Assembly (NCBI GenBank): GCA_015499995.1
Contig: JADNRV010000069.1
Coordinates: 186,001-250,000, forward strand
DNA: 64,000 bases
Direction of reading: 5' to 3'
Source: Flammula alnicola
Taxonomy: Eukaryota; Basidiomycota; Agaricomycetes; Agaricales; Strophariaceae
Both the position numbers and the translations under genes were made by a program. The notes beneath the pieces are model-generated. The model was not told the DNA's origin. It did not search any database and saw only the letters and a list, made by a program, of their open reading frames with translations. Positions 516-63,247 of the stretch are shown here, piece by piece (position 1 is the first letter of the stretch; each line of letters opens with the position of its first letter).

Positions 516-2066
516 TTATTCCCTCGACCAAAAAGCTGGCGGTGGATGCCCGTTCCCGGAGGTTGATGAAGAAGATTGTTGCGAGTGTGAATACCCTGAA
601 ACGGTCTGAACTGGGGGCAGGTTCCGCGGCGGGTAGGAAAGAGGGTCTCGCCCCAGCGCAAACGAGGGGAGGGAAGAAGACGAAGGGTACCCCCGTCCGG
701 TGAAGTCTCTTGGCATAGAAGCGGTTTGCATGTGGCTAAGGTGTTCGTAGGACGATGGCGGGGGTGGGAGAGATGGGGACGTTGGGATGTTCGATTGGAA
801 CGGGGACATATGGGGTTGACTAGGATAAAAGGGCGTGTTCAGGGTAGGGAAATAGTTCGGTGAGGTTGGGGGCTGATTAGAACTTGGGCCAGCAGGATGT
901 TCCGCCGAACTTGACCAAGGGCTTGCAGGCGTCGTGGCTGAGTACGGGCTCTGTTTTCGGCCGCCCAATGTGTTTGGCATTCGAGAGTCCTGGCCGCCTC
1001 CAAGCCAGGTGGGCGGTACTCGCTCCATCCTTGGTTGCCAACTTTGGTGCGAGGTAATTGACTCCGTGCCAAAGATAGAGGGCGATTGAGCGCTACCAGG
1101 TGACTGACCATATGCGAAGTGCAGTCCGTCATGGCCGATGGGCAACCGGGGAGATGTGCTCGAGCCCATACTCGGACCCATGCGCTCAGGATGTCCAGAA
1201 CCACCGTAGGAAAGCCTTGAATCGTGCTGTCCGTTGGATCGAAATGGAGATTCCGAGGAAACCTGGTGACCCGGACCGCGTGAGTGCGTCGCATATTTTC
1301 CATGGTCAATCGGTTGCGACATGCTGTACGGTGGGCGGGAGTACGAAGGGGGTAACGAAGCTTCCAGTTGATCGTCTGGCTCGGTAGGTGAGGCGGCTTC
1401 AAGGTCAATACTTCCCGACATGTCGTCTTGATGGTCTGCGAGGAGAGCTTGATCGACCGGTCTCATCGTCCCACCGTCAGAACGTCGGCGTTTCCTCGAG
1501 TTGTTCGGTCGACGCCGATAGACATAATCTGGGTATCTCGTATTAAATGTCTCTTTTAGTTGCTTTGCTTGCTCGAGGTAGAATTGTTTCTCGGACTGGA
1601 AAAGTGTAAGACAAAAATACGAAGACGACATGTTGTGCATTAATCACCGGGGGCATTGAGACCCATTCTTTGCTCAAAATCTTACTGATCTCCCCAGTTC
1701 GCATAGCCTGGTTCTCTGCAGAGACTTGTGGGCGTCTACGGCGAGCGAAAATCATAAAAGCATTCATAGGGCGTTTCGGAGTACCATCTGCATTGAGTGT
1801 TTGGGAGGTCAACGCCGTGTTGGCGTCGTCTGGAAACTGAAATCTATCAATGAGCATGAATAATATGAAGTAGCATGCGCACCTTCGAGGTCTGCCTCGA
1901 TTTTGTGGGATTCAGAATAGAGCGCATAGTTGCCATCCTCTGACCCCGATTGCGATGCGCGTTCGTCGTGTCTTTCGCTGCTGCTGTTGAGACTTGGATT
2001 GAAACCATTTGAGGAGCTTGCACTCGACGCGTGTTGCGGGAGGCCGTAATTGTTGTACCGGCTCAT
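516..2066 (-). CDS. HMG-box transcription factor (SOX/MATA-like)
   Basis: Nuclear DNA-binding regulator. I read three exons on the minus strand: 2066-1883, 1829-1648 and 1595-516, with both introns GT-AG (about 53 and 52 bases) and frame kept, giving about 481 residues. The single HMG box lies at about residues 79-148. It starts KRPMNAFMIFARRRRP, contains SKEWVSMP, and continues across intron 2 into EKQFYLEQAKQLKETF and a basic tail ending RKRRR. The rest is low-complexity Ser/Pro/Gln-rich sequence, as usual for fungal HMG regulators. The box is of the sequence-specific SOX/MATA class, so mating-type or fruiting-body regulators such as Coprinopsis Pcc1 or Ustilago Prf1 are possible relatives; I cannot assign orthology. 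No homeodomain or pheromone-receptor gene adjoins it, so a mating-locus location is not supported. Confidence 0.9.
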
Positions 2067-2456
2067 GATAGAGTAGATGAGCTGTGAATTTGAATAAGAT
2101 CGGTAAGGGCTCTTTGTAGTCGATGCTTGAGGATTGAGACGAAGCGATGGCGAAGGTAGGCGTTTGCACAGTGATCGGTGAAGCGCAAGCTGTCTCAGAC
2201 GAATCGGTGGAAAGGTAAAGGGCGGAACGAAATGCGGATGCAAGCAGAGTTTATGGACAAACGTATACTTGCTGTTCGCTACCACCAGACCACGGATGCC
2301 CCCTTTGTTCTTCCCAACTCCAGTGTTGACGTATTATCCCAGGAAGGGGTGCTTCTGGCAAACAATCCAGTTTGATCGTCGAGTGAATCTGGTTCGAAGT
2401 GCTCATGACATCGCTTGATGAACCCTTGCAACACTGGCTCACAGGCACACAGCGGA

Positions 2457-2880
2457 TTACCACCTCGTCGAATCTTTTCCGAGAATTTTCGACATCTGTA
2501 AGTAGACTGGCCCTCCTTCTGAACTACCAGTTCTCCGGAACTTGGGGTTCCTCATGCGGCTCAGGTGAACAAATAGAGCAACCAATCCACAAGCGCATAA
2601 AACCCCAAATGATCGAATAACGACTCGTGATGTTTCACGATCAGTACGCTGGGCCTCCACGGCCTTTTCCAGATTTTTTGTGGCGCCGTCGCAAGGAAAC
2701 AGTCCTCCAAAACATACACAAATAACCTGCGGACTTTCTCGTGAGCAATTTCAATCAGCGCGAATTTGATGCGGAGTTCCAACTTACCACCGCCAGATCT
2801 CCCGATCTGGCATCGGATCTGGGCCAAAATTCAAATGCTGCGCAGGTGCCTGCAGGTGCGCGTCGCGAATTTCCAATCAT
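2457..2880 (-). CDS. possible small single-pass membrane protein
   Basis: Tentative model of two exons, 2880-2788 and 2726-2457, with a donor GTAAGT and acceptor GCAG, giving about 120 residues. The second exon has a charged helix (NLEKAVEAQRTDRETSR) followed by one hydrophobic segment (FGVLCACGLVALFVHL) and a basic stretch (RMRNPKFRR), the pattern of a single-pass protein with a positive flank. I do not recognise the family. It sits about 400 bases upstream of the HMG-box start on the same strand. A rival reading without this intron gives a different C-terminus, so the model could be wrong or the locus non-coding. Confidence 0.3.
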
Positions 2881-3412
2881 GACGCTCTGCAAGAGGGATG
2901 GGCGTTAAATTGCACTCTGGAAGATATCAACGTGCAGCAAAGGAGCCTCACAGAATTAGGTGAGACGATCTTCGAGACATGTGAGCGCGACATCACTCCA
3001 GATATCCATCGCTGCGATAAATGGGGTGTGCATTCAGGATTGATCACGGCTCCGAAAATAGCGGGAATCGGGATGTTTGAACAGGTTTAAATCTCTCGTT
3101 GTTCTGGTTTGCGTGAGTCAGCATCCTTCACGTCAGTTAACCTTGCCTGAACCCTTTATGGTCCGCGCAACCCTAGGGTCATATCAGTGATTATTATTAT
3201 CTGCGCAATTTTCAACAACCGCGTAGACTCTGATAATCGCAAAGGTGAGTGATCCGAAAAGACCGTCATAAAATTGTTCATGTAGATATCCTCACACGTG
3301 TGCACCTCTCGATATTTCGTAAAGGCTTGAACAGTCAACGTCAACAGACGGCGTCAGAGCCAGCGACTGCTGGAATCAACAAACGTTGTGACGGTTGTCA
3401 AAGCGTGCGAGG
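2881..3412. other. intergenic, nothing recognised
   Basis: No open frame with coding character and no repeat seen up to the MITE. Confidence 0.4.
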
Positions 3413-3414
3413 TA

Positions 3415-3988
3415 CAGTCGGACCCCTCATAACCCATACCCCTCATAACCCATAACCCCTTATATCCCATAGCTCGACCCATCCACCAACTTGGTTCGCA
3501 GGGAATTGCATACCATAACCCATAGGTCCGCAATAACCCATAACCCATACCCCTCCGCAGGCAAAACCCATAGGTTTTGGGTACTATATTTGGTAAAATG
3601 TCGTAAGTTTAACTTTAGGGTTAAATAATTAGTTTACCGGTTGCCCACCAGTTCAAAAATCACCTTTTCGAACCTTCCCGACCAGCAAAATTATCATTTT
3701 CACCTTCAAAACATCCCCACAGCATGATTTTCCCACGATGCTTGTGTCGACAATACGGTCCTTACATGGTTTGACTGAACTTTTTCAGCGACTATGACTC
3801 GCAAAAGCCTACGGTATTGTCGATGATATGCATTAGCAGTGTATTAGCGTGAATCTGTTCTCCATTGTCCATAATTTCTTCGAAGATTTTCTATTCTATT
3901 TTTAGCCTACCTCTCAAAGCCCATAACCCCTCATAACCCATAGCCTGGGCTGTCCACCGAGGGGTATGGGTTATGAGAGGTTCGACTG
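3415..3988. mobile_element. Tc1/mariner (pogo/Fot1-like) MITE
   Basis: A 574 bp element without coding capacity. The ends are 30 bp terminal inverted repeats that differ at two positions: left 3415-3444 begins CAGTCGGACCCCTCATAACC, and the right end read on the other strand begins CAGTCGAACCTCTCATAACC. Each end is flanked by TA (3413-3414, 3989-3990), the target duplication of Tc1/mariner elements. Inside, further copies of CATAACCC lie near both ends (3445-3475, 3525-3575, 3912-3945), resembling subterminal transposase-binding repeats. The superfamily call rests on the TA duplication and the end sequence; no transposase is present. Confidence 0.85.
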
Positions 3989-3990
3989 TA

Positions 3991-5639
3991 TCCAGCTTTT
4001 GTCGATCGCTGGCATCATAATTCCTGTCTCTAAAACTCGACAATCGTCAGCGCTGGTAGTACGTGTGAATGCATCAAATGACATTTTTAGATACAATTTC
4101 TCCCCCGCCTGTGAACCTGCAAGTGTCGAAGACATATGTGAAGCTTCGGCTCGGGAGGAATACAGCCAATGCTCTTTCGAAAATGATGCAACGAACACCC
4201 ATTGTTACTGGGCGATACACCAAAGCTCGAGTTCTCGAGAGAAAAAAAGGGTGTTACTATGCTTTTGGGGTGCGGAAGGAAGATGTGGCAAGAAAGAAAG
4301 ACTCCTTACCTGGTCGCCGTGTGGCGCACTTTCGGTTATCACACTTGCGGGAGTGATGGAACAGACCGCGCTCCTGATTTCGTACGCATAAGTAGCAGAA
4401 CGCGATTCTGATCTGCCATTTAGCCCCGTAGTTTTTTTCACCGTGTAGTTTTGAAATAAACATACCAGATGACGATGCAAGCGTGCTACAATGTTGTGAG
4501 AGTATTATCGACAGCATAGTTAATAAAGGATTTCTCTCCCCAAATTGCACAAGCAGCCTGATGGTGAGAAGATTGAGAGGGTTGCGTGGGCCTTCCGGAG
4601 GAGCTTCAGGAAAGAAGCCTTCGTGTTGGGAGGAAACCCAAGGTCTTCTCTACCGCGCTGCCCGACTGGCAACCGCCCGATCCCAGTGGAGATCATACGG
4701 CACGATGAGATGTTAACATGAGACGAGCTGATGCCAGCTGAGATGGACTGAGCGTTGGCAAGAAATACGTAAAAAAAATTTGCAGCGTACCAATAACGGT
4801 CCTACAGTATATAAGCCAGACGAAATGGCGGGATGAGTCAGAATCGCGCTTATTGGGCGCACTTATTTAGCTTTAGCAAAATATAGCAAGGGAGTCTGTA
4901 CATTGCTTGTCAATATCTGCACCGCTTTAGAATGAGAAAGGTAAATCTTACTTCCTGCCCCGTATGCTGGCTTTCCAATGCAGCAGCACATTGCGACACT
5001 TTGCGGGTATGTCTCCATAGCGGATAAGCTCATAAAAGGCAGTACGAAAGGCAACACCCCTTTTGCTTTTTCGATCAGGGGACGTTCCCGGTGTTCATAT
5101 GATTCTGTCAGCGCGCGGATTTCGAATTCGCGCTAAGCACCTAGACCTTGGATGGATCCCTGACCCTCGATTGCGACCCCATCTTGGCCCAGGGAAGGGC
5201 AGGAAGAAGACTGAGCATGTTAGACCCATAAGAATAATCCCTGTGCTATCCTGCTGCCAGCTGGTTGGCGTCGATCGTCGTTTTATTCATATCAGGTCAA
5301 ATCACCAAGATCAGTGAACGTTGTTCGCGGATCCAAGAATCAAAAATAGCCTGGACTTTTCAGAGAAAACATAAGAGCTACTCACCTCATCGAAAGGGGA
5401 GCTTTCTGACCTAGTCTAACCTCTATACCTTCAGCCTTGGAGCGCGTCGCCAGCGATGTGGATGCGAGAGGAATACATTGTCACAGCCGTGTCACGTCCC
5501 AGCCTGACGACGCCGCTCCAAGCCGGGCGGATAAGATGGATCAGAATCGCTATCCTTGAGCAATATTTGTCGCCTCAGGACCTCAGACGCTTTCCAGAAC
5601 CTGTTCTTATTTGCCTCCCGACCAGAATTGGTGCATAAC
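3991..5639. other. intergenic, no supported gene
   Basis: Several short open frames overlap one another on both strands with no domain, no convincing splice chain and no homology that I recognise. Confidence 0.4.
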
Positions 5640-7320
5640 ATGAAAGATACGTTGACCGATGCTAGTACGTGTTTTCGCTTTTACGAAACCAGGGTTCAAA
5701 GGTGTGATCTCACATTCATCTAGATTTCCCCAGGACAGCAGACCAGCGCGTCTATCATTTAGGTGTCCGTCCTGGTGAGGTGGCCAATCGAATTGTAAGA
5801 AGGATCGACGTAGAAAGCGCAGTGTTATGGCTCTGACGATCTGATCTAGGTGACAGTCGGGTCTCCGTCAAGAGCGAACACTGTTGCAGGACTCCTGGAT
5901 GCCCAACCAAAGCCTTTTGTCCTCTCCTCCGAGCGTGGATTCTTGACAATCACAGGACGCTACAAGGGCACTCCGATTTCTATCATAAGTATCGGTATGG
6001 GCAACCCGAATATGGATTTTTTCGTGCGCGAAATTAGGGAATCCGTCAGCGGCGACTTGGCTATCATTAGGTTCTGAGCATTGCGCCACTCTATATTTTA
6101 TATGAGAACACTTACTGAACAACCAAAAGGTTAGGGTCTTGTGGCGCGCTGATCGATGTCTTACCTGGAACCGTCGTCGTCCCACAGGCCAGCGTAGCAA
6201 TAACTCGGAACTTTGATTTCGACTTTGTCAACCCAGACCATTGCGATGAACCTGCATACCTAATTAGTAAACCTGTAAGCGTGTCTGATCACGATCGAAT
6301 TAAATTGCCTTTTTACCATACCTTTGGTTTTGTAGGTGTCCGCCGATGAAGAACTTACTGAAGAGGTACGGGCGCTAGCGCTTTTCGAGTTACCCGTAAA
6401 TTTTCATATCTTCATATGATATCTCCGACGATAGGTTTGCAAGGCTCTTGAGGCTGCGAAACCACCCTTTCTAGCTCGCGCATAATTTCCAGGACGATGA
6501 ATGCTTCTGCTGACAGGTTCGTCTCCCGCGACCCCCATTCCCACAAAAACACTAACACGGACATTTTTTGCCAGTTTCTATTCGTCCCAGGGAAGACAAC
6601 GTCCTTCCCTGATCACAATGCTGACTTGATTCAGCATCTGCAAGAGAAGGTGGAAAACCTTTCAACGCTCGAAGTCAGCGATTTTTTTGTGTGTGTAATA
6701 TCAGAAGATGTTAAGACCTATCTCTGACAGATGGAAACCTTCCATCTCTTTCATCTGGCCGCTTGTTGGACTGGCCGGACCGTCGTCTCCAAGGTGGCCC
6801 CGACCCCCCTCACCACGGGGCCTGTCAATCCCATTATTGCCCGATCCTCGAATCCCACACACCTTGACCATCCTACTCCACCATCTTTACCGAATACGAT
6901 CATCAGAGCAGCTGCGACGCACATGGTCTTCGCTTCTCGTAAATCCCAGGATTTTATCACACCGCAGCAGGTGGAAGAACTCGAAAATTGGACCGGGAAG
7001 GTAAGCCTTTTTGCCGGTCTTCCTCTTCACTATTGACGAAACTTCGGACTCACATGTGCTATCGGATTGCTCTTCTTTGCAGGGGGTATTGAACGCCTTG
7101 GTAAACATAGAAATCCCGCAAGATGTGAGTGGCCTGTAATGCTTAATCGAGACGACATTTCCCTGATACGCGCCCTGGTTCTTCGCAGCGGGTGCATACG
7201 GACCAAGGCAGCGTTTGGGAATCGTGTAGGCACCACCCTATCGGTGCCAATTTAAATATATCTAGAACGCTTTTGTTTATTGGTACTTATGTACTAAACA
7301 CTTTTGATTTTCGGATTTAG
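5640..7320 (+). pseudogene. uridine phosphorylase (PNP_UDP family), frameshifted
   Basis: The family splits uridine with phosphate into uracil and ribose-1-phosphate (pyrimidine salvage). Exons start at 5640-5664, 5724-5794 and 5850 onward. Visible family segments are VTVGSPSRA, ISIGMGNPNMDFFVRE, GSCGALIDVLPGTVVVP, then METFHLFHLAACW and MVFASRKSQDFITPQQVE near the C-terminus. All introns examined are GT-AG and about 50-65 bases. Two places break the frame by loss of one base: near 6481-6490, between the FLAR and NASAD segments, and near 6596-6602, just after SFYSSQGRQ. No GT-AG intron can bridge either. The last exon reads through to a TAG at 7318-7320, longer than usual. Either the gene is dead or the assembly has two single-base errors here. 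Confidence 0.75.
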
Positions 7321-49228: not shown

Positions 49229-50734
49229 CTACGTGATCGTTCCAGGAGTGTATTCGGACGTGGGCATCACCTCCTTCCCATTCTCGTCAAGCCCAGGGAG
49301 GATATCGCACGTCGCAAGTGTCGTTGCGATGATGGCAAACAACGTTCCCTGTGCAAAATACTGTCCAGGACACACTCGCCTACCAAACCCAAACAGGAGA
49401 TCTGTGACTTTGGCCATCTCGGAATCGCTGCCGTTAAAGCGCTCGGGATAAAATTCCTCGGGATTTGGGAATACTTCTGGGTCATGAAGCATGTGCCTTG
49501 ACGTTAATCAGGATGTGGGCGCGATTTCTTCTCTCCAAAAGATACGTACCACACATTGGGCAAGATCAAGGCACCTTTAGGAAGGTGGAACCCCTCGTAA
49601 ATGTCGTCTTGAGTAAGAGCATGAGGTATACCTGGTCCAGTAAATCAGAAAGGACGAGTGCAGCGGACGAAGAAACAAACCAAGAGGGAGGGGAGGTCCA
49701 CACCGGAAAACCTCCATCATGATGCTTCGAATATAAGGCAAGTTCGGTTTGTCATTGATAGCAGGTAACCGATCCTTGCTTATGGCAGCGTCGAGTTCTG
49801 CTTGAGCTTTCGCCTGAATTCTGGGATACAGTATCATTGCCCTCAGAAATGTCAGCGTAGACGAAATGGTCTTGGTACCATTTTATCGGTCACTAGTGCA
49901 CTGAATATGAAAATCGAGGAGAAAGACTCACAGTTTCCGATCCACCTGCCATGACAGTTATTGCAGTCCACACCAGACTGTGCTCTTCGTCCTTCGAGAG
50001 TTTCCCTCCCGCTTCTTGGATGATTCCTCCACAAAGATTTGGCATCAGACTTTTCCCGGTTTCCTGACGGGAAATTCAAAGCCATCAGGTTTCATTATGT
50101 AAATTCAATGTCACCTCACTTACAAGGTTCTTCTTGCAGCACTCGTAAGGACTCCAGGCTGCGTCACATATAACCTGACGCCATTCCTCCGCCGCCTTTA
50201 GGAAACCAGAGCCTGGCATCCATCGTGGTAAGTACTTAACTAGAGCGTGGATTAATCATTATGAGAACTGAGAGCCTGAGGATTTCTCCGAAAGAGCAGA
50301 CCTACGGGCAGGGACAAAATCGACGAGGAACTTGCCAGGCGTCGATGTCTTGCTAAAAATGGCGACTGCAGCTAGCGGAGTTGCAAGAATGGGGTCATCT
50401 GCAGAGTGCACATAGTATCCATATGTAATTCGGGTAATTATCGTCCCTATCCTCCTGTTTATTTTCAAGCCTCAACGTCAGTGAGGCTCGTGCGAATCAC
50501 CTTCAATTGAAAAACGTACAGCTGAATCTCAGAAACCAGCGACGCTGAGTCCTCGAGCAAGTTCGAGACGAGAACTGCAGCTTCCTTTTCCTGCAAAGGA
50601 TAGTATCCTGGGATCATGCTTGGACTGAAGCCTTGAGCGATTATGCGACCATCAGGAAAAAACGTCCGGGCCGTAGTTAACTGCCAAGCTTTGTTGTTCG
50701 GCATAGGCTTCGGCGGCCGACATTTACACGGCAT
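49229..50734 (-). pseudogene. cytochrome P450 lacking its N-terminus
   Basis: Haem mono-oxygenase of the agaricomycete CYP64-like kind. From residue about 90 of a normal P450 onward the parts are present: RIIAQGFSPSM, TRITYGYYV, the I-helix AGGSET, KAQAELDA, the E-X-X-R segment MMEVFRCGPPLPLG, ALTQDDIYEGFHLPKG, NPEEFYPERF and the haem loop FGFGRRVCPGQYFA with its Cys ligand. Introns are GT-AG and in frame. What is missing is the membrane anchor, the Pro-rich hinge and substrate-recognition start; the piece before RIIAQGF also lacks the W-R of helix C. The frame ends at TAG 49229, some 15-20 residues short. The catalytic core could still fold, but without anchor and helix C the gene is probably dead. 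Confidence 0.7.
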
Positions 50735-52201
50735 GCGGTTATGTTGATCTCCGTTGCCTATTTAGCGTTCCGGGAGCTGTGGCTGATGACACGGTTGTGC
50801 ATTGTTGCCAGGACATGCAGCTACGTTGTTCGGAATAGCCTTCTCTACGAAAATAGAGACTATGATCACTATGAAGGCTACGTATAAATTACTTGCTTAA
50901 ATCTCCAAGTCAGCAGGTTTTATTATACAGATGAACATATCAGTTATTGCTAGCTTATTACATTGCTGTAGGCTACAAGGATTCGAAATGTCGACTCTGA
51001 TTTTGTGCCGGAGTCAGCCTGAGGCTCGCCGCTCTGCTCTGAGTCTTTTAAATTGGAAGTTCATTCTCAATCGAGGACTGCAGCTGATATTGTCCCCTTT
51101 GCGAACGTTGGAATCCAGGTTGCTCGAATTCTGTTCAAGTTAGATCAAACTCCGACACACGTGACTTCGTTGATTGAAGCACAACTTGAACCCGTCGCCA
51201 AGTCAACTTGAACCTCCTGTTCTTCCACCTCCACCACCACCGCTATGCGCCTGCACGCCAACGGCATACACAACCTTTCACCACCGTGACACATTGCTCT
51301 CTTTAGTAGGCCTGGCGTCAACTATGCAACACAACACCTACAAATTATCAAAACAGCAAGCCTGGCATTGCCGAACAACTGTGAATGCGTGACCGCTATG
51401 GTAAGTGGTATGTACTGGAACGGACTCTACACATCTTCACTAACACTCTTTATCCATTGCGCAGGAACAACGGAATATTTGGCGACCTTGAGAAGTAGCA
51501 GGGCCACGGAAATTTTAAGGGTGTATATGGTTGGATCCTGCCAGCCCGGTAAGTTCCAGAGTCCCTCGAGCGTGAAGTATTGCTGATGCGTCTCTTCAAA
51601 GATGTCGGCTGACTCCCAAGCTTATCTGAGTAGAGACCCAATGTATGCCCAACCATCGTTTCCAACCTTGCTTTGACTGGGCCCCCTCACTTGCTCCTTT
51701 GACAGGCTATTTTCTGACAGTGGCCGAGATTTGTTCGCTGCATTGCTTGACAATGCCACGAACAATTATCCATCTGCCACTGCCATTTGTGATCAACTGT
51801 TGCCTCGTCACATCCCGTCCACCTTGTATGCTTTCGACAGTGCTATCCGGGAATCAGCATGGAAGTCATAGTAATGAGCGTAATTAGTTTTTCCATAATC
51901 TACCTTTTCATTAATTTATTTCATTATCTATTTCCCAATGAGACGTGATCTGTAATTCCTGCCCTGCACTATCAGGATTCTTAGTAAAAATCCTACCTAG
52001 TCTATAGATCAACACATAGACTACGTTAACAATTGTGCTACAATGCTACAGGAACAACGTAGATAAATATAGCAGCACTACGGAGCTACATCGCCCTATA
52101 TTTTAGGGGGATGTCGACGGGTCTATAAGTGCTATGTATGCTACATTTTACAATGTATACTTAGGGTTTTTTCCTGATGACGTTGCTTGCGACAATGGTC
52201 A
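50735..52201. other. region between two P450 fragments, no gene recognised
   Basis: Contains an open remnant at about 51700-51870 (plus; RDLFAALLDNATNNYPSA) that I do not recognise and a 10 bp stem hairpin at about 52090-52114 (ATCGCCCTATATTTTAGGGG). No terminal repeats or target duplication were found. Confidence 0.35.
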
Positions 52202-52752
52202 TCATATGGTTGCAGTACGAAGGACTGGTTTGCACCGACGCTGAACATTTGACTTGAGACCCAACACTAGCAGTAAAATAGGCCAGTTCACATACAGCTC
52301 TCCTGCCATAACCTAAGCACAGTTATGACCATTTAACTTCGGAATTCATAAAACTAGCAGCAATGGAGATTGACTCACCATTTGTGGTCGATCGGAATAT
52401 ATGGACGATCTCTTATCCAGTAAATCCTTGGCTATCTTTTCCGAATTTACAACAACCAAGGACCGCCCAAACACATTGAGGTGGATAATGTCGCCTAGGG
52501 GGGGGGGGAAAGAAGACCTTTAATAAGGCAATACTTCACTCTGAGTCCGATAAATATACCATAAGTTTTCTTCCACTCGGATAAGACCAACCAAGGGCGC
52601 TCTGTCGGTATTTGATGAGCATTTCCAACGACTGGCAGGCATCGCGGTCCAGGAGGCAGTCGTTTGTGTTCGGACGATATGTTATAGTAGTATAGGAACA
52701 AGCCTCCCAAAACAGCGACCGAGATGAGAGCATTAGATAGCAAGGCGTCCAT
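52202..52752 (-). pseudogene. cytochrome P450 N-terminal fragment
   Basis: Begins with a membrane anchor (ALISVAVLGGLFLYYY), the hinge LPPGPRCLPVVGNAHQIP, and KKTYG; exon 2 (52494-52379) continues DIIHLNVFGRSLVVVNS and DLLDKRSSIYSDRPQM; exon 3 starts at 52312 with VMAGELYVNW, then loses the helix C motif and stops at TGA 52202-52204. Introns are GT-AG; the first contains an 11-12 base run of C on this strand just before its acceptor. The fragment overlaps in family position with the start of the downstream P450 piece, so the two are remains of two different genes rather than one interrupted gene. Confidence 0.7.
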
Positions 52753-53257
52753 TGAACTGAAAGGTGGAATAGGACTCGTGAGCAATCCTATCAATAAGTG
52801 GCTTGACAGGTTCCTTTCGTGCCGTTGCTATTAATCGGTACCCACGAAGAAGGTTTTGCTGGGCAATTAAATTGAGTCGAAAATCATACAGTTGTCTTCA
52901 ATAATATTACATCTGAAAATTCCATATTTCTGGGTCGAACGCGCTGGCACTTAATGCAATGTAGAGGTCCAAGCAGGTAGAAGTCGAATACAGAGTACAT
53001 ACAAAGTACATACTTACAAAAAGTCCGGAATTACGGCGATCACCGAAGAGCGGCAATTTTCGCCTTGTTCTCCAGATCATGAATTCCATGCAAATTCCAT
53101 GCCATTCAACATCTTTTACAGGAACTTTGCGAGTGCGAGCCTCTCTCTATAAAATTATGCTGTTGCATATCGATGGAGGTCCGCCGGTCATAAACGCCAT
53201 CCTTTTTGCGTTTAACGTTGCAGGACGTTCAGTAGAATTTCCCACTACCCATGTGAC
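52753..53257. other. flank between P450 fragment and satellite element
   Basis: Nothing recognised. Confidence 0.4.
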
Positions 53258-53347
53258 ACCTTGTGTGACTAAGGTGCCATCACTGATGGCATAGCCTCAC
53301 GAGCTCGTGGTGGCTATTTTTACCCATTAACAATGGACGAGCTCGTG
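53258..53347 (+). repeat. left terminal inverted repeat
   Basis: Starts ACCTTGTGTGACTAAGG and contains CCATCACTGATGG and CACGAGCTCGTG, a perfect 12 bp palindrome. Confidence 0.75.
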
Positions 53348-53640
53348 TTAATTAAGGAATGGGCAAGCTTGAGGTAGATCAATGGATGAGCTGGCCATCA
53401 GGGCCAATGGCGGAGCTGTTTGCCCTTGGATGCATGGACGAGCTCTTGTTCCATTGATGGATGAGCTCGTCAAATTGGTGTTTTTGGGCTGGGGGGGGGG
53501 AGGATTTTGTCGATATATTATATAGATTCTGCATTACCTCTTGCTCAGTAATATATTGAATTGCTATGCCGGAGCCATTTTGCATCAGAATTTGCATTGA
53601 ACGCCAAATCCAGTGATTTCTCAGGGAAACCCTCTGACAA

Positions 53641-53876
53641 GTGTGTCTGATCTCTAGGGAAATATATCTGACTTCCGGAAAAGTGCATTTAACTTCCGGG
53701 GAGGTGTGTCTGATCTCCAGGAAAGTGCAGCTGACTTCCAGAAAAGTGTGTCTGACTTCCCGGGAAATGTGTCTGCCTTCTAGGAAAGTGCATCTAATCT
53801 CCGGGGAAGTGCATCTGATCTCTGGGGAAGTGCATCTGACTTCCAGGAAAGTGCATTTGACTTCCAGGGAAACACA
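53641..53876 (+). repeat. 21 bp minisatellite, about 11 units
   Basis: Unit like AAGTGCATCTGACTTCCAGG plus one base. Because 21 is a multiple of three, one frame stays open and spells a 7-residue repeat (KVHLTSR-like); I regard this as a by-product, not a gene. Confidence 0.8.
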
Positions 53877-53877
53877 G

Positions 53878-55760
53878 TGAGTCTCCTGGAATGTATGCAG
53901 AGCTCTGGAGATGCATACAGTCCGCCGGAATGCATGTGGAGCTCTGGAGATGCATGCAGGTCCCCCGGAATGTATACAGAGAGCTGGAGAGGCTTACATG
54001 TCTGCCTAAATTAATACGGAGTCCGGATTTGCTTGTGAATCCGCCAGAATGCACACGGAGCTCTGGAGATGCTTACATGTCCACCTAAATTAATACGGAG
54101 TCTGGATTTGCTTGTAAGTCCGCCGGAATGCACACGGAGCTCCGGAGATGCATGCAGCTCCGCCGGAATGCACACAGAGGTCCGGAGATGCATGCAGCTC
54201 CGCCGGAATGCACACAGAGGTCCGGAGATGCATGCAGCTTCGCCGGAATGCACGCAGAGCTCTGGAGATGCATTTAGGTCCAGAAAAATTTATGCATAGT
54301 GCCAGAGAGGCTTACATGTCTGCCTAAATTAAACTGGAGTCCGGATGTGCTTGTGAGTCTGCCAGAATGCATGCGGAGCTCCTGAGATGCATGCAGGTCC
54401 TCCGGAATGCACGCGGAGCTCTGGAGAGGCTTACATGTCCACCTAAATTAATACAGAGTCCGGATTTGCTTGCAAGTGCGCCGGAATGCATGCAAAGCTC
54501 CGGAGATGCATGCAGGTCCACCGGAATGCACACAGAGCGTTGGAGAGGCTCATATGTCCGCATAAATTAATACGGAGTCCGGATTTGCTTGTGAGTCCGC
54601 CAGAATGCATGCGGAGCTCTGGAGATGCATACAGGTATGCCGGAATGCACATAGAGGTCCGGAGATACATATAGGTCAGCCTAAATTAATACAGAGTCCG
54701 GATTGCTTGTGAGTCCACCGGAATGCACGAGGAGCTCCGGAGATGCATACAGGTCCACCTAAATTTATGCGGAGCTCTGGAGAGGCTTACATGTCTGCCT
54801 AAATTAATATGGTGTCCGGATTTGCTTGTGAGTCCGCCAGAATGCGTGCGAAGGTCTGGAGATGCATGCAGGTCCGCCGGAATGCACGCAGAGCTCCGGA
54901 GAGGCGTACATGTCCACCTAAATTAATACAGATTCCGGATTTGCTTGTGAGTCCGCCGGAATGTGTGCGGAGGTCCGGAGATGCATACATGTCCGCCTAA
55001 ATTAATACAGAGTCCAGATTTGCTTGTGAGTCCGCCGGAATGCATGCAGAGCTCCAGAGATGCATGCAGGTCCGCCGGAATGCATGCAGAGCTCCAGAGA
55101 TGCATGCAGGTCCGCCGAAATGCATGCAGAGCTCCAGAGATGCATGCAGGTCCGCCGGAATGCACACGGAGCTCTGGAAAGGCTTACATGTCCGCCTAAA
55201 TTAATACGGAGTCCAGATTTGCTTGTGAGTCCGCCGGAATGCACATGGAGCTCCGGAAATGCATACAGGTCCACCTAAATTTATGCGGAGCTCCAGAGAG
55301 CCTTATAGGTCTGCCGGAATGCACGCAGAGCTCTGGAGAGGCTTCCATGTCCACCTAAATTAATACAGATTCCGGATTTGCTTGTGAATCCGCCGGAATG
55401 TGCGCGGAGGTCCGGAGATGCATACAGGTCCACCAGAATGCACATAGAGCTCCGGAAATGCATATAGGTCCACCTAAATTTATGCGGAGCTCTGGAGAGG
55501 CTTATAGGTCTGCCTAAATTAACACAGAGTCCGGATTTGCTTGTGACTCTGCCAGAATGCATGCGGAGGTCCGGAGATGCATACAGGTCTGCCGGAATGC
55601 ACATGGCCCTCCGGAGATGCATACAGATCCACCTCAATTTATGCAGAGCTCCGGAGAGGCTTATAGGTCCACCTAAACTTACATAGAGCTCTGGAGAGGC
55701 TTAGATGTCTGCCTAAATTAACACGGAGTCCGGATTTGCTTGTGACTCTGCCAGAATGTA
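53878..55760 (+). repeat. 40 bp satellite array, forward orientation
   Basis: About 47 monomers of exactly 40 bp. Three monomer types can be told apart: A with GCCGGAATGCACACGGAGCT then CCGGAGATGCATGCA; B with CCTAAATTAATACGGAGTCC then GGATTTGCTTGTGA; C with CCACCTAAATTTATGCGGAG then a GGAGAGGCTTACA end. They recur in ordered groups (C or A, then B, then one or more A), a higher-order structure. Local homogenisation is visible, for example near-identical A monomers at 55040-55155. Confidence 0.9.
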
Positions 55761-57060
55761 TATGGACCTTGGGTCTCTAGATTAAAGAACAGACATCTAG
55801 GCACACAACAGGCCGGGTCACGTGAAATTGCCAAAGGCACCGAGGACGTGGAGCAGTGGGGTAAAAGCAGACGCCCATAGATGTGCCTGTAGCAATGCCG
55901 ATCAAAGCTCAGATCAAAGGGATACCTATTTGGAAATATATACCATATCGGGTATGTCTGGCTACAGTAAGATGTCCAGGGTGCATAACACGACATACCG
56001 AGATCCCAGATGCACACTGAGGGTACTAGGTTACAGGGTACAGTCTTAAGTGCTTAAGTTAGCTGAACCGAAGGTGATCTGAGCTCCTGATGCATCCAAA
56101 AATGCACAATCAAGTGAAAGCACATGGAAACTGTACTCCACAGTCTTCCACCCATGCACAAATGCTTATGAATTCTCTATAATCTCGTCATTGTGTCTAT
56201 GTAATAATATTTAATCTCAGTAGTATACAAGTAGCCCTGTAACACTGTAGAAGACAAGCAATTTACCACCCATGAGTTTTGAGCGCTTAAGATCTCATCT
56301 AAGGGTTCCGCCTCTAAGGTATTTCAAAAGCAAGTGTCCCAATATAATAAAAAACCAGTAAACATTCTAAATAAACTGTCTAAGATAAGATGGCATGCCT
56401 AAGTGGTTTACCAAGTTAAAGAAAAGAGAGTTATAAACTGAGGGACTTGTCTAAGTGACTTGTTCAAAACCACCTATTGTCAAAGGACATCTGGGGACCT
56501 GGACTGTAGTGCCAGTAGATGAAAGTGTCTACGTGCCTCTGGCCATCATAGTGTCAGTAGATGAAAGTGTCTACGTGCCTCTGGCCATCGTAGTGTCAGC
56601 AGATAAGACATCTGTGTGCCTCTTTCCACAAGCATAGTTTTGAGATAAGTTAAAGGGCGTAGAGCTATCTTCTCAATTGGAGAACAAGTTAAGACAACAA
56701 GTTAAGACAAGATCAGATAGCAGTTTGTGCATAGAGCACTTCAGAACACCAGTTATGAATATACACAAGTCTATTGGACTTAAAATGACCTATTGACTAT
56801 TAGGCACTTGAGACCTTGTCCAAGCCATTATATAGTTAAGAACCTTCTTTTATAGCAAGTCTACTATCAGGTATTGATATTATAAAACTATTATCCTCCC
56901 CTTGGATGAACTAAGTCAACTAAATATTAATTTGGGTGTTTGAAGTGTAGACTACTAGTATTAGAAGTGAAGCAAGTTAGATTTGATAGTGATCCTGTTA
57001 GTAGACATTACAAAGTCTATTAAATGTGACTACTTTATTATCTAGTAGTTCGCACACACC
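55761..57060. other. unique centre of the palindromic element
   Basis: About 1.3 kb, A/T-richer, no coding signal. It holds a 42 bp tandem repeat (about 2.5 copies, 56514-56610; unit starts AGTAGATGAAAGTGTCTACG). It would be the loop if the two arrays paired. Confidence 0.6.
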
Positions 57061-60015
57061 TGGTACTAAGCATGTTTAACAGAGTCTGGATTTGCTTGCG
57101 GGTCCACTGAAATTTAAGTGGAGCTCCAGAGATGCTTACAGGTCTGCCTAAATTAACACAGCGGTCCAGAAATCCTGTTGCAAGCATCTCCAGAGCTCCG
57201 CATAAATTTAGGTGGACCTGTATGCATCGCTGGAGGTCCCTGTGCATCCTGGCAGACCTGTATGCATCCTCTGCATGCATTCCGGCAGAGTCACAAGCAA
57301 ATCCGGACTCTGTGTTAATTTAGGCAGACCTATAAACCTCTCCAGAGCTCCGCATAAATTTAGGTGGACCTATATGCATCTCCGGAGCTCTATGTGCATT
57401 CTGGTGGACCTGTATGCATCTCCGGACCTCCGCGCACATTCCGGCGGATTCACAAGCAAATCCGGAATCTGTATTAATTTAGGTGGACATGTAAGCCTCT
57501 CCAGAGCTCTGCGTGCATTCCGGCAGACCTATAAGGCTCTCTGGAGCTCCGCATAAATTTAGGTGACCTGTATGCATCTCCGGAGCTCCACGTGCATTCC
57601 GGCGGACTCACAAGCATATCCGGACTCCGTATTAATTTAGGCGGACATGTAAGCCTTTCCAGAGCTCCATGTGCATTCCGGCGGACCTGCATGCATCTCT
57701 GGAGCTCCGCATGCATTCCGGCGGACTCACAAGCAAATCTGGACTCTGTATTAATTTAGGCGGACATGTATGCATCTCCGGACCTCCGCACACATTCCGG
57801 CGGACTCACAAGCAAATCCGGAATCTGTATTAATTTAGGTGGACATATAAGCCTCTCCAGAGCTCTGCGTGCATGCCAGTGGACCTGCATGCATCTCCGG
57901 AGCTCTGCATGCATTCCGGCGGACTCACAAGCAAATCCGGACTCTGTATTAATTTAGGTGGACATGTAAGCATCTCCGGAGCTCCGCGTGCATTCCGGCG
58001 GATTCACAAGGAAATCCGGACTCCGTATTAATTTAGGCAGACATGTAAGCCTCTCCAGAGCTCCGCGTGCATTCCGGAGGACCTGCATGCATCTCAGGAG
58101 CTCCGCACGCATTCTGGCGGACTCACAAGCAAATCCGGACACCGTATTAATTTAGGCAGACATGTAAGCCTCTCCAGAGCTCTGCATGCATTCCGGCGGA
58201 CCTGCATGCAAATCCGGAGCTCCACATGCATTCCGGCAGACTCACAAGCAAATTCGGACTCTGTATTAATTTATGTGGATATGCAAGCCTCTCTGGAGCT
58301 CTGCATCCATTCCGATGGACCTACATTCATCTCCGGAGCTCCGTGCACATTCCGGCAGACTCACAAGCAAATCTGGACTCTGTATTGATTTAGGCGGACA
58401 TGTAAGCCTCTCCAGAGCTCCGCATAAATTTAGGTGGACCTGTATGCATCTCCGGAGCTCCATGTGCATTCCGGCGGATTCACAAGCAAATTCGGACTCT
58501 GTATTAATTTAGGCGGACATGTAAGCTTCTCTGGAGCTCTGCGTACATTCCGGCGGACTCACAAGCCAATCTGGCCTCTGTGTTAATTTAGGTGGACATG
58601 TATGCATCTCCAGAGCTCCGTGTGCATTCCGGCGGACCTGCATGCATCTCCGGACTTTCTATGTACATTCCGGCGGACTTACAAGCAAATCCAGACTCCG
58701 TATTAATTTAGGCAGACATGTAAGCCTCTGTGGAGCTCTGCGTGCATTCCAGCAGACCTGCATGCAAATCCAGAGCTCCACGTGCATTCCGGCGGACTCA
58801 CAAGCAATTTCGGACTTCATCTTAATTTAGGTGGACATGTAGGCCTCTCCGGAGCTCCGCGTACATTCCGGCAGACCTGCAAGCCTCTCTGGAGCTCTGC
58901 GTTCATTCCGGCGGACCTCCATGCATCTCCAGAGCTCCGTGTGCATTCCGGCGGACTCACAAGCAATTCCGGACTCCATATTAATTCATGTGGACATGCA
59001 AGCATCTCATGGAGCTCTGTGTGCATTCCGGTGGACCTGTATGCATCTCCAGAGCTCCACGTGCATTCCAGCGGACTCACAAGCAATTCCGGACTCCATA
59101 TTAATTTATGTCGACATGCAAGCCTCTCTGGAGCTCTGCGCCCATTCCGGCGGACCTGCATGCATCTCCAGAGCTCTACGTCCATTCCGGCAGACTCACA
59201 AGACAATCTGGCCTCTGTGTTAATTTAGGTGGAGCTCTACGCCTCTCCAGAGCTCCGCATAAATTTAGGTTGCCCTGTATGCATCTCTGGAGCTCCACAT
59301 GCATTCCTGTGGACTCACAAGCACATCCGGACTCTGGTTTAATTCAGGTGGACCTCTAAGCCTCTCTGGCACTCTGCATAAATTTACCTGGACCTGTATG
59401 CATCTCCGGAGCTCCACGTACATTCCAGTAGACCTGTATGCATCTCCAGAGCTCCATATACATTCCAGCAGACTCGCAAGCAAATCCGGAATCTGTGTTA
59501 ATTTAGGTGGACCTGTAGACATCTCCGGCGCTCCATGTAAATTTATGTGAACCTCTAAGCCTGTCCAGAGCTCTGGATAAATTTAGGCAGACCCATTAGC
59601 ATCTCCGGAGCTCCCTGTACATTCCGGCAGACTCACAAGACATTCCGGCAGACTCACAAGACATTCCGGCCTCAGTGTTAATTTAGGTGGAGCTCTAAGC
59701 CTCTCCGGAGCTCCATGTAAATTTAGGCAGACCTATAAGCCTCTCCGGAGCTCTGTGTAAGTATATGCAGATCTGTAATTGTCTCCGGAGCTGTGCTTAA
59801 ATTTAGGTGGACCTGTAAGCACATTCGGATCTCTTCTGTTATTTTACGTGGACTCACAAGCATCTCTGGACTCCATGTTAATTTAGGCACTGCAGAGCTC
59901 TATGTTAATTCAGGTGGACTTGTAAGCAATGAGCATCTCCAGTGCTTGGTGTTCATTTAGATAAAATTGCAAGCAACTCCAGAGCTCTGGAATAATTTAG
60001 GCAGACCTATCCGGT
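57061..60015 (-). repeat. 40 bp satellite array, reverse orientation
   Basis: About 73 monomers of the same 40 bp types, reverse-complemented (for example CTCCGGAGCTCCGCGTGCAT then TCCGGCGGAC). Monomers decay toward the right end, where spacing becomes irregular after about 59500. Confidence 0.9.
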
Positions 60016-60336
60016 CTGCCTAATTTGACAGACAGGTCTGGAGGTGTTTGCATCTTGAGACTGAGATGCAGCATGGATTGCAGGTGAAGACCTGATAAAT
60101 TGACATCCTGGATCAGAAATCTTCCAGACCTTACTCAAATTGAAGTCATCATTCCAGGTTTGGAGAAGAAAAAAGGTGACGGGCTTGTGAAGAGCTTTGA
60201 ATAATGAGATGTATTAATAGTATAAATGTTATGATGACTGCCTACAGTACATAAGGAATCCACCTAGCAAGCTATTCCAGCATGACAGGCAAGCTTGGCC
60301 TTGCTGGCTGGACCTACACGAGCTCGCTTGGCCTCT

Positions 60337-60425
60337 CACGAGCTCGTCCATCCTGGATGGGTATTTTTGGCAGCACGAGCTCGTGAGGCTAGGCCATCAC
60401 TGATGGTACTTATGTCACACAAGGT
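60337..60425 (-). repeat. right terminal inverted repeat
   Basis: Reverse complement begins ACCTTGTGTGACATAAG and contains CCATCAGTGATGG and CACGAGCTCGTG, matching the left end in order and spacing. Confidence 0.75.
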
Positions 60426-60697
60426 AATACACTATATATGGTAATTAGCTACAGAACTTTCTGAACGTTGATTATATTGCGCAAAAAAAATCGGCAACCC
60501 CGAACGCTCGTCGATCCGCTTCCATGATCCAGTGGATACAGAGGATAGCCTTGACAAAATCTTGCATGAAGAGCAGTATGGTGGAAATATTGAGGAAAGG
60601 GTTGTTATGCTCCAAAGCTGATTCATCAGGATGAACATTAGCGATCACTGAAAACATGTGTTTAGGTGTTTACCTGACATATCACTCCATAGGATCA
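60426..60697. other. flank between satellite element and 7-TM gene
   Basis: A short minus-strand open frame (60472-60657) has no recognised domain. Confidence 0.3.
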
Positions 60698-62412
60698 TTA
60701 CGCAGTTTGTAGAGGCAGAGGCAGCGTCGCTTTCTCAGCGGCTTCAATGGCAGCTTCAATGTTGTGGACTTCCGAGCCGGAGAGATGACTTTCATCTATT
60801 GAGACCGGATTGAAGCGAATGCTTTCGAGCACTCTTGGGGTACGCCCATTCCGATGGGTCACTGCTCGATCACCCACCGCTTCAATTGAAGGCATGACGG
60901 TGGTGGCAGCTCTTCCTTGAGCGACTTTAGCGATAATAAGATATGGTGATATGACCTAAATAATGATAAGCCATTGATAGAACTAGCACCAAAAAAATAA
61001 TGGAAGCTTACGCATATGTGTGGAAGGATCATGAGTGGGATTTCTAGTGTTGCCAAAGTTCAGTTCAGTTCAGTTCACAGCCCTTTTGGCCGAACTGCGA
61101 ACTGAACTTTTTACAGTGTGGACTGGACTGAACTGAACTGTTTAGAACTGGTTCGAACCTGTTCGAACAGGAGAACAGGTAGAAATTTTTGTTTTGCAAT
61201 TTTTTAGTCTAATACACAAAAAAAAGGTCCCAACCTACTTTTTGACCTCAAAAAAAATAGACCATCACTGCTCTAGTCTATCATAAAATTTTCCTTAGAA
61301 GGGTCATAAAGGGTTGTTACAATAAGTATTAACATATTTCAATCTATTTTCATCCAAAAAAAGTGAATTTTACATGGTTTATTTAGGATTTTATACCTAT
61401 GTTATTTAACAGTTCAGTTCAGTTCTGACAGTCCGAACTGCAGTTCGGACAGAATTTCCAGGTTGGCTGAACTGAACAGAACTGAACAGAACTGTCAGTT
61501 CAGTTCAGTCAGTTCAGGTTCACTGAGTCTGTTCAGAACTGAACTTTGGCAACACTAGGGATTTCCGAGCCATTGGCTTGCTCAAAGAAAAGAACTCCAT
61601 AAATCCCAGTGAATATCACAATCAGAGCGCAGGATTCGATGCACATAGCCATAATTTGTGCATATCCCGAGCCATGTGCAACTCCGAGCAGCTTTCTAAG
61701 ACGCCTTTGATGGTACGCGAGTCGCAACATGATCAGCAGAGCAAGAATTAGGTTGACTAACGCCGTCAATGCTGCGAGAGGAAAGGCTTCCAAGATGGGC
61801 ACTATAAAGAATAATATCGCATTTGCTTATGCGCAATAGAGGTTTCGAGTTAGCTGATATTGTTATAGCTGATAGGAAAGACTCACCCAAAGACGTAAGT
61901 AAGATGAGAGAAAGACAGGTAAAGACGAATATTTGAAGCCGCCGCGATGCTCCTTGGTATAAGACCAGACAGCGCCAGAGCTATCATCATAGACGTAAAG
62001 AAGTTAGCAATCTGTTAGAGACAGTCGTACATTAACCTACCATGAATACATCTGCACCTAAAATAGTGAATGGGAGAAATAGGGTACCATTTTGGAAAAA
62101 GAATTCGATGATGGCCTGAAAGTCGGACAAGCTAAATATTGCGAAGTCGTCCGGCGCACTCCTAAATATAACCAGCGTCATACCGACAGTTTCTTGAATC
62201 CAGGCCAATGTGCTGAGCAAGAACATGACGGTGATGTAGAAAAAGTTAAAGCCCCTCATCCGTTTGGAGTATATGTATGGCGTCTTCAGGAGGAGCCGAA
62301 AGCAATGGACAAACACCATAATGACAGTGCCGTATGCAACCGATGCAAAAATTGTCCCAATGAGCAGCAGCTCCCGTTGAATATCCGGACCAGGAACGAG
62401 CTGGGCTGACAT
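60698..62412 (-). pseudogene. basidiomycete 7-TM protein gene split by a MITE
   Basis: Membrane protein of the large uncharacterised agaricomycete 7-TM group, often loosely called receptor-like. From the ATG at 62412 (MSAQLVPGP): IGTIFASVAYGTVIMVFVHC, FFYITVMFLLSTLAWI, FQNGTLFLPFTILGADVFM, then after an intron LWRCLVLYQGASRRLQIFVF and LSLILLTSL, then LEAFPLAALTALVNLILALL and ALIVIFTGIYGVLFFEQANG. Right after GSEIP the exon is interrupted by the MITE at 61045-61557, which brings an early stop. Beyond it the reading resumes in the same frame with LMILPHIC, an intron, ISPYLIIAKV and the cytosolic tail to TAA 60698-60700. Everything else is intact, so the break is recent. Confidence 0.85.
61045..61557. 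mobile_element. hAT-type MITE with 8 bp target duplication
   Basis: A 513 bp element with matching ends TAGTGTTGCCAAAGTTCAG (left) and its reverse complement (right). It is flanked by GGGATTTC at 61037-61044 and again at 61558-61565, a perfect 8 bp duplication, the length produced by hAT transposases. The subterminal parts are built of AGTTCAGTTC-like repeats in both orientations. No coding capacity. Confidence 0.92.
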
Positions 62413-63247
62413 GTTGTAAACGGCAGTGAACCAATAAGATGTGAGAAGGGGAATCGATGCTTTGCGACAGGTAAGTTGGGAGCGGCTCGCGTCTTTAAAG
62501 CAGAAATTTGAGATCATAGAAGACTGACGGGGGCAGTGACTCACAACCTTGCGTTTCGACTGGAGTGCTAATCGATGCATCAGGCAACCAGAACGAGGTA
62601 TTTTGGCCAGCTCCGAGAGATGATGATGACCCTTAGTTCCGACCAACTCATAATTAATTCGGATCAACGTCAACTCGGCCACGGATGGCCGCACCCCGGC
62701 AGCCTTTTCTTGGTAAATATTTCCTTTTCAAGTTTATCGGCAAGTCGGTAATGACCGTCTGGATGCGAAGGTAGGCTGTGGCAACAACTTTCTAAGTTCC
62801 TAACACCCACTAATTAGCATTCTTTGAAAAATTGGGAACCAGCCATTTAATCAACAATTAATCTTGCCTTATCTTGCCCTTATCACAAGTGCCGAGCAAA
62901 ATTAAGGTAGCTCTAGCTATTTGATCGTTGCTTCACAGCCTCACCCTATATCTACCCTTGCATACTCGATTCGTTGACGCCATCCAGATTTGCAAGCTGC
63001 ATAGGTAAGTCCTTCTCCCGTCATGCGCGGCGATTCTTTACTTACATCTAAATTTTCCATCGGGAATCTGGTCATGAATTCCGCAAATTTATTCACAAGA
63101 AAGGCATGATCGACTGAAAGGCTGCTTAAAGATACAAAGGCAGTGCATCATAGCGGAAAGAATTGAGGACAAAGGTATGTAGCTGAGAAAATGAAGAGTC
63201 TGTGCGTTTCGACGCCTCCAGGCAACCAAGGATCGCGCGGAGTTAAT
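62413..63247. other. intergenic, 7-TM upstream and oxidase 3' flank
   Basis: Nothing recognised apart from short open frames. Confidence 0.4.

Follow-up and report, generated by a model that had tools for sequence, protein, structure and literature searches.

The window analyzed here, a stretch of 64,000 nucleotides from Flammula alnicola, contains an element of 7243 bp on the forward strand (53221..60463). It starts with CAGGACGTTCAG at 53221, closes with CAGAACTTTCTG at 60463, and is bordered on the left (53214..53220) and on the right (60464..60470) by the two copies of a 7-bp target-site duplication, AACGTTG. The ends were set at the positions where the flanks of unrelated copies begin. 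The outermost 15 nt match as an inverted repeat at 12 of the 15 positions, and the termini read CAG...CTG in the element ends listed. Farther inside are two subterminal inverted repeats, 53258..53347 (forward strand) and 60337..60425 (reverse strand), which are 81-82% identical. The initial annotation had taken these ~90-bp inverted repeats for the ends of the element. The repeats are there, but the true ends lie 37-38 bp farther out.

About two-thirds of the element is satellite. Behind the left end, a minor tandem array (53639..53872, forward strand) has a 21/63-bp unit, with 3.6 copies of 63 bp according to TRF. It is followed by the left array of a ~40-bp satellite (53888..55769, forward strand, 1.9 kb by TRF), a centre made of a degraded repeat fragment (55770..57078, forward strand), and, on the right, a second array of this satellite in inverted orientation (about 57079..60010, reverse strand, 2.9 kb by TRF and inverted-repeat search). 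The 40-bp arrays stop ~670 bp short of the left terminus and ~450 bp short of the right one. They are in opposite orientation: a 13-mer core, searched with at most two substitutions, occurs 26 times forward and never in reverse in the left array, with counts of 0 and 33 in the right one. TRF and the inverted-repeat search thus agree with the earlier description of two facing arrays around a centre of ~1.3 kb. The unit has higher orders of 79, 119, 159, and 238 bp and a 20-bp sub-periodicity (TRF). The arms pair over 485 nt at 82% identity, 428 nt at 88%, and, near the centre, 298 nt at 98%, with values down to 73% among the 25 pairs listed. A monomer profile built by iterated nhmmer matched both strands inside one array and was unusable because the unit is near-palindromic.

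Four of the five ORFs of at least 120 aa in the element were scanned against Pfam; they gave no match and, in particular, no KDZ transposase gene. We found no tRNA within the window, nor any non-coding RNA family at the gathering threshold.

Copies and insertion sites

Copies of the satellite element with two ends measure about 5.9-7.6 kb (by hand, including those of C10 and C434), and all 11 have perfect 7-bp target-site duplications, each of a different sequence. They are not MITE-sized. MITEs are internally deleted elements and are short, a few hundred bp. Using joined flanks as query, we found an uninterrupted empty site for two of the three copies tested. For the site in the window, contig C290 is continuous, with a single AACGTTG and flanks about 94% identical. 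For the insertion in C190, contig C294 is continuous across the same site. For the copy in C368, which has a repeat as its left flank, the joined-flank search found no empty site. Other bounded copies and empty sites, proposed at the outset as a check, have both been found, and from these sequence comparisons the satellite element is a mobile family. The lengths of the arrays and the repeated independent insertions exclude chance as an explanation of the layout. All satellite matches listed are on 14 contigs that bear an element end. The satellite seems to be confined to one mobile element, which would spread it.

Coding elements with the same ends

The ends of the satellite element, ~393 bp on the left and ~220-285 bp on the right, are shared with elements of 14-16 kb in the same genome at 88-92% identity. 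The left end (53221..53613, forward strand) is 90.6% identical to that of the coding element of C314 and has GAGCTC at element positions 81, 119, 220, and 243. The right end (60181..60463, forward strand), common to the coding elements, has it at positions 7100, 7120, and 7157, and is 87.7% identical to C314 over 285 columns and 92.2% identical to C257 over the last 217 bp. A 7-bp duplication borders two of the three long relatives: the element of C314 (14.8 kb) has CCTCGAG on both sides and that of C257 (16.5 kb) has GAACAAG. The flanks of the third long pair of ends, in C281, do not match.

The element of C314, the sole long element examined in full, encodes a KDZ transposase (PF18758, 5.1e-41), a CxC2 domain (PF18803, 1.2e-24), and a TET/JBP dioxygenase (Tet_JBP, PF12851, 9.7e-16). 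It has no satellite and matches the window element at the ends only. All 12 satellite-free left ends, that of C314 included, run on past 393 bp into C314-type sequence. Among the 12 contigs with these ends, 10 have TET frames (at least 76%) and 6 have the KDZ core (at least 90%). The TET frame is in two pieces in C740, is a piece of 58 residues in C233, and contains stops in C346.

We also considered whether the satellite arose from the KDZ ends, which is unsupported: the monomer aligns to the ends of C314 no better than dinucleotide shuffles. The observed local-alignment score is reached by 344 and 346 of 500 shuffles for the left 393 bp, and by 332 and 284 of 500 for the right 283 bp. Interior windows of C314 outscore the ends in this alignment (26 and 24 vs 16).

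Since the transposase was found in the same-ended element of C314 and not in the window element, we call the latter a non-autonomous relative and not a coding member. Its copies occupy many sites, which they probably reached with the enzyme of the larger transposon. The shared ends and the length of the duplication lead us to infer movement in trans, in which the transposase of the larger TET/JBP-carrying KDZ elements would recognise the ends of the satellite element. The initial annotation had offered a non-autonomous DNA transposon carrying satellites as one possibility; the bounded copies, the 7-bp duplications, the empty sites, and the same-ended coding partner support it.

The closest known elements are the TET-carrying Kyakuja transposons of Agaricomycetes, which have 7-bp duplications and CA..TG termini (Kojima 2025, PMC12730594). 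Both traits are found in the satellite element, and its same-ended partner likewise codes for a KDZ transposase as well as a TET/JBP dioxygenase. In contrast with Kyakuja as described there, the window element has no coding match found and is largely satellite. It also has imperfect terminal and ~90-bp subterminal inverted repeats, whereas Kojima describes Kyakuja in Laccaria without inverted repeats. The main text of PMC12730594 uses "non-autonomous" once, of the TET/JBP genes themselves.

The centre and recombination between the arms

The centre is 78-88% identical, in two pieces, to a 1.77-kb dispersed repeat. This repeat looks like an LTR, a call made by eye from a PPT-like tract, an adjoining frame, and one solo copy. 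The tract precedes the repeat in one copy (C36), the frame is gag-like and lies behind the repeat in L065, with no Pfam match, and the solo copy has a possible 4-bp duplication. In C117, the ~9 kb that follow the repeat contain no second copy that we could find, and a complete LTR retrotransposon as the source of the centre is thus unsupported. The two inverted arrays probably expanded within the element, on either side of what is left of this repeat, presumably after the genes of the element had been lost.

Two copies document rearrangements. In C434, the segment at window-element positions 2350-4213, centre included, sits inverted at 1749-3614. In C10, a 225-bp piece of the left arm (1077-1301) matches the right arm of the window element at 223 of 225 positions, and none of the left arms tried exceeds 203 of 223. 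Another piece of C10 (1366-1559) was examined as a candidate exchange and rejected, as its matches (192/194 vs 189/195) do not discriminate between the arms. One flipped centre and one arm-to-arm exchange indicate that the arms recombine: pairing between them would flip the centre and swap sequence from arm to arm, leaving copies that vary in length and order.

We conclude with high confidence that the element is a non-autonomous cut-and-paste KDZ transposon, most like Kyakuja, with ends that the transposase of the larger TET/JBP-carrying elements would recognise, a 7-bp duplication, and inverted satellite arrays grown around an LTR-like remnant, whose arms pair, flip the centre, and exchange sequence.

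Alternative explanations and the role of the arrays

One may ask if any mover is needed, since a segmental duplication, or the collapse or expansion of satellite DNA during assembly, could give similar structures. Tandem arrays are hard to assemble, and the present assembly, of 861 contigs, apparently includes some regions as two homologous versions. However, the copies sit at 11 distinct points, every one marked by a perfect 7-bp duplication of its own, and two of the three copies tested have an uninterrupted empty site, which makes such an origin hardly credible. Another explanation, already raised in the initial annotation, is a small-RNA source locus, where read-through of the inverted arrays would produce a long hairpin RNA; once diced, this RNA would silence either the KDZ/TET family or the element. 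In line with this, complementarity between the arms extends over hundreds of bases, at 73-98% in the 25 pairs listed. The CpG observed/expected ratio is 0.31-0.73 in parts of the element, against 0.93 in the left flank and 0.78 in C314, and when copies are compared, 16 of 38 and 34 of 58 mismatches are transitions in CpG context, a pattern consistent with past methylation. Yet, low CpG is equally expected in any silenced transposon, and as the window element matches C314 at the ends only, most of the array RNA could target satellite copies only. We consider this function quite unlikely.

The arrays might instead have been selected because GAGCTC-rich monomers provide extra binding sites that help the element to compete for the KDZ transposase, a role that has been put forward for the tandem repeats of the Galileo arms. 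No hexamer is more frequent in the arrays than GAGCTC (65 copies, rank 1). In the 14.8-kb element of C314, 7 of its 14 sites are no more than 250 bp from an end (binomial p 1.4e-7, in a test chosen after the data had been seen), and it is joint first with CGAGCT among 4096 hexamers for terminal copies. This richness and clustering suggest extra predicted transposase sites, for which there is a precedent in Galileo, where repeated sites in the tandem repeats of the arms bind the THAP domain of the transposase (PMC3688188). On the other hand, the whole monomer is no closer to the KDZ ends than shuffles, and the wider end motif CGAGCT is absent from the arrays. Selection for binding sites is thus a real but minor possibility. 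Going further, the arrays could be an evolved parasitic device, in which a GAGCTC-type contact, present in dozens of copies along both inverted arms, captures the KDZ transposase, so that the element profits from the demethylase while encoding neither. Such a foldback hyperparasite of a methylation-disarming transposon is, in our view, unlikely. The presence of a same-ended coding partner in the same genome makes the role of the arm repeats, whether in transposase binding, in recombination, or as a source of RNA, testable.

Comparison with foldback elements

The non-autonomous KDZ transposon favoured here has a foldback-like design, known from animals. It has the long inverted arms of tandem repeats around a centre. 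Foldback arms of tandem repeats reach to the termini, or nearly so, but here they stop short of them. Inverted arms of tandem repeats are found in Tetris and Galileo, and in the FB element compared with them (PMC4079207, PMC3573991, PMC3688188). Among the matches listed in the open-licence literature, we found no fungal element described with such a design, and nothing on Flammula alnicola and transposable elements. The initial view that the design is undescribed in fungi is hence uncontradicted.

Tetris of Drosophila virilis is also non-autonomous, with tandem repeats in inverted arms, has terminal portions in common with another element, and has repeats that also occur as satellite-like arrays (PMC4079207). 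In the account of its authors, who assign it to Mutator, it differs by its ~220-bp repeats, its 8-10 bp duplications, where the window element has 7 bp, and by the lack of a coding partner found, whereas the partner found here is KDZ; besides, our satellite arms stop before the termini. Galileo of Drosophila has long, internally repetitive inverted arms and structural exchange among copies, as described in PMC3573991 and PMC3688188, but it belongs to the P superfamily, with a P-type transposase, while the window element is KDZ and binding to its arrays is putative. Since these sources describe the design mainly in Mutator- and P-type elements, the present case suggests a further origin, in the fungal KDZ superfamily.

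The element is, in addition, a case of a probable parasite on transposons that carry a TET/JBP dioxygenase, and of a satellite seemingly confined to, and spread by, a mobile element. Elements of the Pacific oyster are similar in the latter respect, as they are non-autonomous and carry and disperse satellite-like arrays, but, as classified in PMC7492417, they are of the Helentron (rolling-circle) type and not KDZ.

Structure, copies, and empty sites

Judged from its sequence, the window element is a foldback-like, satellite-filled, non-autonomous KDZ transposon. Foldback elements were already known from animals; among the papers listed from a mainly open-licence literature, we found neither a fungal foldback element of this kind nor a satellite-filled KDZ element. 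The initial annotation had proposed two facing arrays of a ~40-bp unit around a centre. TRF and an inverted-repeat search bore this out: the arrays, 1.9 and 2.9 kb long and opposed in orientation, lie on either side of a 1.3-kb centre and together make up about two-thirds of the whole. The 90-bp inverted repeats that it took for the ends of the element are present, but they are subterminal, and the true borders, set where the likeness between the flanks of the copies ends, lie at window positions 53221-60463 (CAGGACGTTCAG at the start, CAGAACTTTCTG at the end).

We searched the Flammula alnicola genome (Agaricales, Strophariaceae; 74.4 Mb in 861 contigs, the window being on contig C656) with the left 251 bp and the right 161 bp of the element. 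These gave at least 41 and at least 40 matches, respectively, counting cross-matches to the opposite end and with the best 40 candidates scored for each. Eleven satellite copies have both ends (on C10, C139, C190, C368, C40, C412, C434, C436, C457, C469, and C656) and are about 5.9 to 7.6 kb long, as measured by hand from match positions, with C10 and C434 extracted. All 11 are flanked by a perfect 7-bp duplication, and no two duplications are alike.

Empty sites were searched for three of these 11 copies by joining both flanks with a single copy of the duplication, and were found for two. The join of the window copy aligns with contig C290 from end to end at 91% identity, with AACGTTG present once and no interruption at the insertion point. 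That of the C190 copy likewise aligns with C294 along its whole length (95%), and here too the 7-mer occurs once (AATCAGT against AATCTGT). The search gave no empty site for the joined flanks of the C368 copy, whose left flank is a repeat. Since homology between C290 and the window goes on in pieces of 94-96% identity over 49865-62745 (with one more 71-bp piece at 89%), these alignments mark C290 as either the counterpart of this region on a homologous chromosome or a duplicate that arose long ago. In homologous stretches, C290 and C294 are 91-96% identical to other contigs. This suggests that some regions are assembled as two nuclear haplotypes, in which case empty alleles can be sought within one assembly. 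Two stretches of the window are missing from C290: 50650-52178 (about 1.5 kb), probably another insertion, and 61045-61557, probably a small one of about 0.5 kb in which TTCAGTTCAGTTC-type repeats abound.

A coding partner with the same ends

We classed 26 left ends, namely the 25 best left-end matches and that of C40, leaving out two 79% matches (C434:70951 and C335:300190). Thirteen run into satellite, one (C30), likewise satellite-type, breaks off after about 570 bp, and 12 have only ~393 bp in common with the window element. All 12 satellite-free ends, including that of C314, run on into the sequence of the long C314 element, which past some of them extends for 545-1787 bp, as bounded by contig or likeness. 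The elements on C314 (14.8 kb) and C257 (16.5 kb) each have both ends and a perfect 7-bp duplication; the flanks of a third long pair of ends, on C281, do not match. The right flanks of C281 and C257 are identical (first 25 bases, GAACAAGTTGGCGG...) and their left flanks unlike; duplication, rearrangement, or assembly chimera may each account for the shared flank. At C142:7876-8660, about 0.6 kb of inserted sequence interrupts a coding-family right end.

The C314 element encodes both a KDZ transposase (PF18758, 5.1e-41) and a TET/JBP dioxygenase (PF12851, 9.7e-16), as well as a CxC2 cysteine cluster (1.2e-24). Of its 10 scanned frames, seven have no match to the KDZ, CxC2, or TET/JBP models, one of them weakly matching an unrelated zinc-binding model below that model's cut-off. 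The only tandem repeat detected in it by TRF is a G-rich simple array. Among the 12 contigs with satellite-free left ends, 10 carry TET frames at 76% or more and 6 the KDZ core at 90% or more. More distant KDZ families also occur in the genome (C59, C548, C415, C447, C119, C264, and others), their identity to the C314 transposase being about 48-51%. Several share a contig with TET/JBP frames of about 29-31% identity. Kojima gives 7-bp duplications and CA..TG termini for the TET+ Kyakuja elements of Agaricomycetes (PMC12730594), a description that fits our element family. For Cryptococcus, the insertion duplications given are of 8 bp for KDZ1 and 4-8 bp for KDZ2 and KDZ3 (PMC12810828).

Satellite, centre, and arms

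Querying the genome for the satellite with 538 bp of the right array gave 27 candidate regions, every one scored. The matches listed (151 reported) fall on 14 contigs, three of which show a single end: C102 the right, and C48 and C36 the left. Because all 14 carry an element end, no satellite was seen on element-free contigs among the matches listed for this query, in a search that skips very common words.

The centre has 12 copies at 95% or more within satellite elements. Two pieces of it are also 78-88% identical to a dispersed 1.77-kb repeat that looks like an LTR, the larger piece matching at least 28 further places at 78-80% (best 40 of 258 candidates scored). On C36 (145900-152400), a copy of this putative LTR directly adjoins the left array of a satellite element and is about 97% identical to four of five fetched relatives.

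Over the compared stretch, the C412 copy is nearly collinear with the window copy: the two agree at 5390 of 5428 aligned positions, and the gaps are of 7, 20, 21, 1, and 1 bases. In C434, the counterpart of window-element positions 2350-4213, which contains the centre, lies inverted, and the sequence at one breakpoint (C434 1749-1909) matches both window-copy arms at 98%. A 225-bp piece of the C10 left arm (1077-1301) is identical to the window right arm at 223 of 225 positions, but shares just 203 of 223 with the window left arm. By these alignments the arms recombine, through a flip of the centre in C434 and an exchange between arms in C10, which is the outcome expected from pairing of inverted arms. 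Two inner arm stretches of the window copy are 99% complementary, against 73-89% for most other arm pairs shown.

The arrays may serve as binding sites, GAGCTC being common to them and to the ends of the coding partner, or might conceivably have a hairpin-RNA role. With 65 copies, GAGCTC outnumbers every other hexamer in the arrays, and in C314 half of its 14 sites lie within the outer 250 bp per side, where it ranks joint first among hexamers; Galileo provides a precedent for binding sites within repetitive arms (PMC3688188). However, the likeness of the whole monomer to the KDZ ends is no greater than for shuffles, and the arrays lack CGAGCT, a hexamer that the ends contain. The parts of the element are poor in CpG (0.31-0.73) relative to the 10-kb left flank (0.93) and C314 (0.78), and of the mismatches that separate copies, 16 of 38 and 34 of 58 are CpG-context transitions, a pattern consistent with methylation.
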